Below the pieces are notes generated by a model, which worked only from the letters and a program-made list of their open reading frames with translations, did not search any database and was not told the DNA's origin. A stretch of 64,000 bases of DNA from Lentisphaera araneosa HTCC2155 (GTDB lineage: Bacteria > Verrucomicrobiota > Lentisphaeria > Lentisphaerales > Lentisphaeraceae), in the NCBI RefSeq assembly GCF_000170755.1, contig NZ_ABCK01000004.1, positions 62,001 to 126,000 on the forward strand. The letters are read 5' to 3'. The stretch's first letter is position 1. Each line of letters begins with the position of its first letter. Shown here piece after piece: positions 21,096 to 23,816 of the stretch. The translations under genes were made by a program, and so were the position numbers.

Positions 21096-21362
21096 TCATT
21101 CGTAATGAGTCCACATACGTAGGACTTTGATTGTGTGTTGATTTTCGATGACTTCGTAGACCAAGCGATGTTGAATATTGATTCGTCGTGAATAAGCACC
21201 ACTCAAATCCCCAATTAGTTTTTCATAGGGTGGGGGAGTTTTATAGGGATCTTCTTTAATGAGATCAATGAGTTTTAAAATTTTATCTTTTAGTCCAGAG
21301 CTAGCGGCCTTTTTAGCGTCTTTTTGAGCATGTTTTGTGTAAACAATTTCCCAGCTCACCAA
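21096..21362 (-). CDS. yoeB: YoeB/Txe-family toxin (ribosome-dependent mRNA interferase)
   Basis: 88 residues, normal for YoeB. Features are a start WEIVYTKHAQKDAKKA, the central PPPYEKLIGDLSGAYSRRIN with the conserved G-x-x-S-R, HRLVYEV with the Arg used in catalysis, and the C-terminal His-Tyr (MWTHYE). YoeB cleaves mRNA at the ribosomal A site when freed from YefM. The gene overlaps the upstream antitoxin by 7 bp, the usual arrangement. It sits between two repeat blocks, as is common for mobile toxin-antitoxin pairs. Confidence 0.92.
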   Translation of the reverse strand: MVSWEIVYTKHAQKDAKKAASSGLKDKILKLIDLIKEDPYKTPPPYEKLIGDLSGAYSRRINIQHRLVYEVIENQHTIKVLRMWTHYE

Positions 21363-21598
21363 TCAAGTTCCTCGCTGCACTCGGCGACTGAAGTTTCTAA
21401 ACCATCTTTTATGGATTCAGTAATGCCCGCAATAGATGTCAGCATTAATGTTTCCTGAATTGAGCTCCAATCTTCTTCTGAAATTAATACGGCGGAATGC
21501 CTTTTTCCCGTTATATGAATGGGATCATGTGACTCGTGAACGGCATCAACTAATTTATATAGATTAGTTCTCGCTTTTGTTACTGAAATTGTTTTCAT
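21356..21598 (-). CDS. yefM: YefM/Phd-family antitoxin
   Basis: 80 residues. The N-terminal Phd/YefM DNA-binding fold reads TISVTKARTNLYKLVDAV, followed by ITGKRHSAVLISEEDWSSIQETL as in YefM. The C-terminus is acidic (SVAECSEELDW) and would wrap the toxin. It is expected to neutralise YoeB and to repress its own promoter. It starts 58 bp from the repeat-rich DNA upstream. Confidence 0.92.
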   Translation of the reverse strand: MKTISVTKARTNLYKLVDAVHESHDPIHITGKRHSAVLISEEDWSSIQETLMLTSIAGITESIKDGLETSVAECSEELDW

Positions 21599-21638: not shown

Positions 21639-21714
21639 TTATTTTTACGAAGTTTCAAGTTTTATTAGGTTCAGAGTTATCAGATCGCTTATTTCATTCG
21701 CCTGTAGGCCTGCT

Positions 21715-22110
<396 letters not shown>

Positions 22111-22155
22111 TATTGCCATTAAATAGACTGGATTAAGTATAGGCATATTTATTAT

Positions 22156-22899
22156 TCAAAAATCTTGCTTCTCCAGATCAAGTATTTCCTTAACATTAAC
22201 TTGTAATATTTTAGCAATATCTAAAGCCGTTCTAAAGTAAACTTTAACACCCGCTTCAGCTCTTTTGATGGTCGATTTAGAAATATAACATTTAGAGTCT
22301 TGGCTTTTACTCACAAACATATCCATACTCATAAGATGTGAATTTCTCAATTTTTTTATCTTATTTCCATCAAGATACACTCTTCCATTAGTTATAATTT
22401 TGTTTTCTTCTGCTAATTCTTTAGCTTCTTTTTGTAAGGCTCTTATTAAATTTAAATTCTTCTTTGAATCGGCTTCCTGTATAGCCTTTAAAAAAATCAT
22501 ATCTAGGGTTTGATCGAAAGGTTCAAAGTTCTGTAATTTTATTTTTTCAGCAACTTCAGGGTCATGAACAGAAATACTTGGACAAAAAAGTAGTTGACTT
22601 GGTTCAGAAAAAAAATATGACTTCCCCTTTAATGTAAAAGAATCATTTTTTTCTTTAAAAATGGTTTCATCATCGCAGTCATTCTGGATGAACTCAAAAG
22701 TCAACTTTTTAAAAACGTACAAGGGTTTAAAGTACGCTTCTGGTATGTCTCCTTTTGAAATTGAAACCTGCATCCAAGCAAAACCAGGACCCATATCTAA
22801 AATTGTATTTTCCTTAGAAATGATTAAGTAAAAAGGAAAGATTTTATTTAACCATTCGGAACTTATACCATAGGTTGAAATATATTTATCTTTTTGCAT
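22156..22899 (-). CDS. HNOBA (H-NOX-associated) domain fused to an XRE-type helix-turn-helix regulator
   Basis: 247 residues. Residues about 15-140 match the heme-NO-binding-associated domain (PAS-like, as in soluble guanylate cyclase): FPFYLIISKENTILDMG near the start, then LKGKSYFFSEPSQLLFCPSI. Residues about 140-166 form the signalling helix (KKNLNLIRALQKEAKELAEEN). Residues about 176-241 are an HTH_XRE fold (LDGNKIKKLRN, STIKRAEAG, RTALDIAKILQVNVKEIL). In known systems HNOBA is joined to cyclases or kinases; here the output is DNA binding. The gene starts 5 bp after the H-NOX gene, so the two proteins very likely form a complex. The target promoter is unknown; self-regulation is plausible. 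Domain calls are by eye. Confidence 0.8.
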   Translation of the reverse strand: MQKDKYISTYGISSEWLNKIFPFYLIISKENTILDMGPGFAWMQVSISKGDIPEAYFKPLYVFKKLTFEFIQNDCDDETIFKEKNDSFTLKGKSYFFSEPSQLLFCPSISVHDPEVAEKIKLQNFEPFDQTLDMIFLKAIQEADSKKNLNLIRALQKEAKELAEENKIITNGRVYLDGNKIKKLRNSHLMSMDMFVSKSQDSKCYISKSTIKRAEAGVKVYFRTALDIAKILQVNVKEILDLEKQDF

Positions 22900-22904
22900 A
22901 TCAT

Positions 22905-23441
22905 TTATGAGTAGATAGTTTTAAAAATGGTTTTTTCAGCATCTTTACTTAAAACAGTTATACTAATTTTTTTGTTAAATTTAATTCCTAATGCCTCAAT
23001 TAAACCAATAACCATAGGTTCTAAATCACTTCTGGCAGACCTGTAAATTAAATCTAATTCTTCTCCGGTATCATTGACTACTTGAAAATGAGGAGGTTGT
23101 AATTTTGGGAAAGAACTTGCGACATACATATGCAGCTTGTTTAAATTTTTAAGAAAATCTACAAATGAAGTCCCACCTAATTTATAGGCATTGCCATATC
23201 CTTCAGAAATGGCAAAATCCACCCAATAATGACCGAATTTTATAAGTACATCCGCTACACTCACTCCTAATTCATTACTTATTTCATGAACTAATTTAAA
23301 AATCATACTGTCGTCATAGCAATCCGTTTTTATGAAATCTCTTTCAGAAAAATCAGCTCTTTGGCTTATACGATCCCAAGCACTTGAACCTAACTCTATT
23401 TCTACTAATTTTTTTATTCCTACACCAATTAAGCCATACAC
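22905..23441 (-). CDS. H-NOX heme domain protein, predicted NO sensor
   Basis: Stand-alone H-NOX of 178 residues from the GTG at 23439-23441. This start is preferred to the ATG at 23492 because GGAGG lies 8 nt upstream and VYGLIGVGIKKLV matches the usual H-NOX N-terminus. The proximal heme ligand is His104 in NKLHMYV (sGC His105), and the Y-x-S-x-R heme-propionate motif is YRSAR (Tyr133, Ser135, Arg137). The residue aligned with the distal-pocket Tyr of O2-binding H-NOX is Met143 (MVIGL), which suggests an NO-selective, non-O2-binding heme. It forms an operon with the downstream HNOBA-XRE gene. Confidence 0.9.
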   Translation of the reverse strand: MYGLIGVGIKKLVEIELGSSAWDRISQRADFSERDFIKTDCYDDSMIFKLVHEISNELGVSVADVLIKFGHYWVDFAISEGYGNAYKLGGTSFVDFLKNLNKLHMYVASSFPKLQPPHFQVVNDTGEELDLIYRSARSDLEPMVIGLIEALGIKFNKKISITVLSKDAEKTIFKTIYS

Positions 23442-23816
23442 AGTTTTATCCTCCAAGTAGTATTGATGTGATTTATTAAAATCACGCTTCAAATAATCAT
23501 TTAATATATGATTAGAAATATATATACAAAGAAAAAATAGTCTTGATACAATTAATTAAATAAATATTTCATTTATTTCTCGGAAATTTAACTTAAGGCA
23601 AAGGTTTATTCATTTTTAAGTGAAAAAATTCTATTTCAGAAAAGACATAACACCGTCAAAATATTTATAGGTAAATCAAATAATATAATAATAATACTTT
23701 TCTGTTTATTTATTTTATATCCATTTTAATCATTAAACAAAGAATTTACTCGTCAAGCTTTTATCTCTATATTCGATAAACCCTCTTAGGAACAAGCTTA
23801 TTTGTCGATAAGCTAA
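23442..23816. other. AT-rich spacer upstream of the H-NOX operon
   Basis: Very AT-rich DNA with no gene. It should hold the H-NOX operon promoter; no clear dyad was picked out with confidence. Confidence 0.4.

Follow-up and report, generated by a model that had tools for sequence, protein, structure and literature searches.

Within the window analysed here, a stretch of 64,000 nucleotides from the genome of Lentisphaera araneosa HTCC2155 (6,023,180 bases in 81 contigs), a gene for a stand-alone H-NOX protein is followed by a gene whose product combines an HNOBA domain with a helix-turn-helix (HTH). H-NOX proteins are known to signal via cyclases, kinases and chemoreceptors. The locus raises the question of whether an H-NOX protein could instead pass a gas signal directly to a DNA-binding protein. 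A preliminary description had read the pair as an NO-responsive transcription switch and this reading is supported by the results below; within it, the response to NO and the binding of DNA by the HTH are the parts that we infer. The features of the pair are as follows.

23450..23454, minus strand: GGAGG ribosome-binding site of the H-NOX gene, read from the sequence
22905..23441, minus strand: H-NOX gene, 178 aa with a GTG start (PF07700, Nostoc Alr2278 structure alignment, orthologs)
22900..22904, minus strand: gap of 5 bp between the H-NOX and HNOBA-HTH genes (1 nt in both relatives)
22156..22899, minus strand: HNOBA-HTH gene, 247 aa (open reading frame; orthologs in both other Lentisphaera genomes)
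22564..22860, minus strand: HNOBA/H-NOXA PAS-like core, residues 14-112 (Pfam, BLASTP, hhalign, Foldseek)
22387..22512, minus strand: continuous predicted signalling helix, residues 130-171 (AlphaFold2, moderate confidence, pLDDT ~57-65)
22180..22368, minus strand: XRE/Cro-C1 type HTH, residues 178-240 (sub-threshold Pfam, pLDDT >92, Foldseek, paralog identity)

The H-NOX reading frame runs on the minus strand from the GTG at 23441 to a stop at 22905, and both orthologs have an ATG at the position equivalent to the GTG. Comparison with PF07700 gave 139.7 bits (E 1e-40), the match covering positions 1-163 of 163, i.e. the whole domain. The proximal His104, the YxSxR motif (Y133, S135 and R137) and P116 and P117 were invariant in all five aligned H-NOX proteins. 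Thus the stand-alone H-NOX originally described, with His104, the YxSxR motif and a GTG start served by GGAGG, was confirmed, as was the Met placed at its distal position: in a structure-based alignment Trp73 and Met143 correspond to Trp74 and Met144 of Nostoc Alr2278. Alr2278 binds NO and is not known to bind O2. As judged from this alignment, the Trp/Met distal pocket of the Lentisphaera protein supports a pocket of the NO type. The partner gene does follow 5 bp later on the same strand, and a gap of this size here and of 1 nt in both relatives is consistent with co-transcription of the pair.

In the 247-aa partner protein, an HNOBA/H-NOXA PAS-like domain is followed by one long helix and then by the XRE-type HTH, after which the chain ends; no HisKA or HATPase domain was found by profile search or in the model. 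An N-terminal HNOBA domain had been proposed, with the significance of its profile match named beforehand as the test, and PF07701 matched residues 82-167 with 29.3 bits against a Pfam cut-off of 23.4. The two orthologs scored 20.0 and 18.7 bits, under this cut-off. Residues 7-168 aligned by BLASTP (E 4e-13) with the HNOBA domain of a canonical kinase adjoining its own H-NOX, the alignment taking in the entire HNOBA domain of the partner protein, and profile-profile comparison of the region using hhalign gave 97.5% probability. With the fold match given below, the proposal holds. The conserved His of the HNOBA x-H-D motif, which precedes the helix, is replaced by Phe or Tyr in all three HNOBA-HTH orthologs and is present in 6/6 aligned HNOBA-kinases, being a trait of these six sequences and not a curated family criterion. 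On such sequence comparison the HNOBA domain is divergent, and this counts against the switch model.

An AlphaFold model made from a 3-row alignment of the three orthologs was poor (pLDDT 47) and was replaced by an AlphaFold2 model using a 13-row alignment with HNOBA-kinase and HTH-AAA_16 rows included. The final model (pLDDT 81) has the PAS-like domain at residues ~14-112, a predicted helix (residues 130-171) that links the HNOBA domain with the HTH, and a compact HTH with pLDDT >92; a PAS-like fold and then a signalling helix is what is expected of an H-NOXA PAS. The best Foldseek matches were human and Manduca soluble guanylate cyclase (sGC; E 4e-8), followed by the Nostoc H-NOXA PAS crystals, where 2p04 and 2p08 gave TM scores by target of 0.76-0.82 (for 2p04_B, 0.82 with an rmsd of 1.9 Å); the structure 4gj4 was also matched. 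Because of the HNOBA-kinase and HTH-AAA_16 rows in the alignment, the fold matches and the sequence homology are not entirely separate lines of evidence. The model from the three orthologs already matched XRE folds.

The XRE-type HTH proposed for the C-terminus did not stand on its Pfam score, which was below the cut-offs for both HTH_26 (21.1 bits, cut-off 22) and HTH_3 (15.9 bits, cut-off 23), but it did stand on fold and paralog evidence. The sub-threshold score is the weakest point among the domain calls. Foldseek matched the C-terminus to HipB, C.AhdI and SinR, with HipB at an rmsd of 1.1 Å over 58 columns (prob 1.00, E ~0.03), and the region is thus modelled with the four/five-helix Cro-C1 fold. 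The recognition-helix region, S-x-S-T-x-K-R-A-E, is conserved. Chance resemblance or mis-called domains, considered for the protein as a whole, were ruled out by the Pfam, BLASTP, profile-profile and fold matches.

The paralog evidence comes from a second family of proteins. The three genomes also encode large HTH-AAA_16 regulators, and over ~75 residues the HTH shares 49-53% identity with the one at their N-terminus. In L. araneosa, such a protein of 1031 aa consists of an N-terminal XRE-like HTH, AAA_16 and a C-terminal Peripla_BP_5 domain.

L070 1151-4246 (G000 contig C6): HTH-AAA_16-Peripla_BP_5 gene of L. araneosa

Proteins opening with the same HTH and ATPase, ~1,000 aa in length (about 1,030), occur in the other Lentisphaera genomes. 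The HTH-AAA_16-Peripla_BP_5 protein is itself an unusual regulator, with a sensor of the amide/urea-binding type (AmiC/UrtA-like). Such regulators are like the HNOBA-HTH protein in HTH sequence, with the HTH at their N-terminus, and differ from it in having the AmiC/UrtA-like binding domain as sensor together with the AAA_16 ATPase. Among 198 genomes of the class, the HTH was found in Lentisphaera, as an interrupted relic in one genome of the same family and as four marginal matches. From their sequences, the HTH-AAA_16 regulators are the probable source of the HTH. Most simply, the protein probably arose within Lentisphaera from an HNOBA-kinase whose kinase portion gave way to the HTH of an HTH-AAA_16 regulator already resident there.

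In each of the three Lentisphaera genomes searched, Lentisphaera marina among them, the H-NOX and HNOBA-HTH genes lie side by side, so the anticipated conservation of the pair in other genomes was found in both other Lentisphaera genomes, seemingly within this one genus only. A survey of 388 genomes of the phylum gave 20 H-NOX genes in 19 genomes. Three of the 20 precede HNOBA-HTH genes, all in Lentisphaera; the remaining 17 all adjoin histidine kinases (recognised by HisKA/HATPase motifs), five preceding HNOBA-kinases and 12 kinases lacking HNOBA. A tree of the H-NOX proteins, from which one H-NOX (L044) was left out and in which a number of long branches leave the finer placements uncertain, separated with full support (100/99) an HNOBA-partnered class from a class whose kinases lack HNOBA. 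The HTH-partnered proteins formed one clade (100/99) nested in the former, and by its sequence the H-NOX of the pair belongs with this HNOBA-partnered class. The view of HNOBA as the partner domain of H-NOX was borne out.

For the two closest orthologs dN/dS was ~0.27 for H-NOX, ~0.28 for HNOBA and lowest, ~0.21, for the HTH, values which indicate purifying selection on all three modules. Since the modules are under such selection and are intact in three species, a decaying fusion was ruled out. Beyond the phylum, one contig scan with two very narrow HNOBA peptides matched L. marina only, and a plasmid search found no HNOBA-HTH. The pair thus appears confined to one genus so far, with other phyla barely sampled.

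Taken together, the pair is probably a two-protein, phosphorylation-free, gas-responsive transcription switch in which NO is relayed from H-NOX through HNOBA and the helix to the HTH. The stand-alone H-NOX would bind NO at its ferrous heme and, by analogy with its family, would dock on the PAS-like HNOBA domain of its operon partner. H-NOX is understood to dock in this way on the HNOBA domain of HNOBA-kinases, and likewise in sGC. A ligand-dependent change would then run along helix 130-171 to the C-terminal HTH, and the paired XRE HTHs would change their grip on operator DNA; the helix probably also holds the protein together as a dimer. The gas signal could in this way switch genes directly, without a kinase or cyclase step.

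The surroundings of the pair were also inspected. No known NO-metabolism gene lies beside it, and an NO-metabolism neighbourhood was rejected. The genes around the pair differ between L. araneosa and its two relatives. The 7-9-mers shared by the upstream regions of the operons, which might represent a common operator, did not exceed the level of shuffled sequences, and an imperfect inverted repeat was present in L. marina alone. The lack of a neighbouring NO-metabolism gene and of a shared operator counts against the switch model, as do the HTH scores below both Pfam cut-offs. Promoter and terminator scans gave site numbers not above shuffles and no RNA element was found at the locus in Rfam. 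At window positions 21675-22111, directly downstream of the HNOBA-HTH gene, a 156-nt unit carrying the palindrome CTCACTGCAGTGAG is repeated in tandem ~2.5 times; related pieces lie at many sites in the genome (39 among the matches listed) and open reading frames with AGRMPALP crossing the repeats are probably spurious. Further downstream, at 21096-21598, a small two-gene unit has by eye the look of a YefM/YoeB-type antitoxin-toxin pair. A HipA-like kinase gene, also recognised by eye, is convergent near the pair in the two close relatives (L072 7143-8369 and L073 3557-4783) and was not seen beside the pair in the L. araneosa window.

Elsewhere in the L. araneosa genome there are two further loci of relevance.

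L003 677-3036 (G000 contig C13): second, canonical H-NOX / HNOBA-histidine kinase-receiver operon
L087 898-2571 (G000 contig C6): a flavohemoglobin gene and, divergent from it, a gene for an Rrf2/NsrR-like regulator

The H-NOX of the kinase-type operon is a long, divergent branch in the tree. The flavohemoglobin and Rrf2/NsrR-like genes are a probable separate NO-detoxification switch and their proximity suggests that the organism meets NO; that the flavohemoglobin gene has such a neighbour of its own also speaks against the switch model for the pair. With the HNOBA-kinase operon and the flavohemoglobin switch also in the genome, the H-NOX/HNOBA-HTH pair would be a third NO-responsive route. 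Hcp was not found in the genome, and the sole gene recovered in a COX1-family search was a cytochrome oxidase subunit, with no NorB-like second match.

These observations bear on other readings of the pair. The switch might work as described with CO, O2 or the heme redox state as its cellular ligand. H-NOX domains can take ligands other than NO, and the lack of Hcp and of a NorB-like match in the searches above agrees with such a ligand. However, the distal pocket resembles that of Alr2278, with Met and not Tyr at the distal position, and the flavohemoglobin locus points to exposure to NO, which leaves a ligand other than NO unlikely. The HNOBA-HTH protein might also act without this H-NOX, its PAS-like domain binding a ligand of its own or the H-NOX serving the HNOBA-kinase of the same genome. 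The PAS-like character of HNOBA, its replaced His and the existence of the second H-NOX and its kinase would all fit, but that kinase has its own adjacent H-NOX, the HTH pair is kept adjacent in three species and its H-NOX falls in the HNOBA-partnered class; we regard such independence as very doubtful.

It could further be argued that the HTH has ceased to act on DNA and is a protein-interaction module, through which H-NOX and NO would govern pairing with, or blocking of, another regulator such as the HTH-AAA_16 protein. The sub-threshold Pfam scores, a close likeness to the HTH carried by a different regulator of the cell and the failure to find a shared operator in the upstream regions are in its favour. 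Against this, the recognition-helix region is conserved, dN/dS is lowest in the HTH and the fold closely matches DNA-binding repressors, making an interaction module quite improbable.

Among known systems, the pair is closest to the Nostoc-type H-NOX/HNOBA-histidine kinase operons, which also have a stand-alone H-NOX of the same class followed by an N-terminal HNOBA PAS and signalling helix. Unlike the HNOBA-histidine kinases, the Lentisphaera protein is only 247 aa, has an XRE HTH as output in place of HisKA/HATPase and lacks the x-H-D His. Transduction through H-NOX, PAS and helix is shared with sGC, which provided the top Foldseek matches, but the Lentisphaera pair has no cyclase and its H-NOX is a protein of its own. 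The H-NOX/diguanylate cyclase, H-NOX/HqsK and H-NOX/HnoK systems likewise encode H-NOX with the protein it acts on; their outputs are cyclases, phosphodiesterases and kinases, with no DNA-binding protein among those listed. The PpsR repressor has the same order of PAS, helix and HTH, with weak Foldseek matches, but differs from the HNOBA-HTH protein in having several PAS domains and no H-NOX partner, and the likeness is one of order and fold, sequence homology not being shown. The partners of H-NOX named in PMC8846402, PMC3759921 and PMC6195638 are kinases, diguanylate cyclases and phosphodiesterases. In agreement with the preliminary description, no account of an HNOBA-HTH system was found in the open-access literature searched, and an earlier description may exist elsewhere.

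The HNOBA-HTH protein is accordingly filed as a new output of the known H-NOX/HNOBA sensor family. As the recognition helices are nearly the same, the HNOBA-HTH and HTH-AAA_16 regulators may share operators. It is improbable, as a combined claim, that this is the first H-NOX system acting directly on transcription, with an HTH taken from a regulator having an AmiC/UrtA-like sensor and with shared operators; were it so, these operators would join NO and organic-nitrogen (amide/urea) signals on one set of genes. If the switch is as proposed, HNOBA would be a portable receiver with exchangeable outputs, and the pair would offer the shortest route by which an H-NOX signal gets from gas to gene. 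The PAS and helix parts are the same as those in human sGC, and the hand-over of the signal from H-NOX to the PAS and helix would become measurable by a simple DNA-binding readout.
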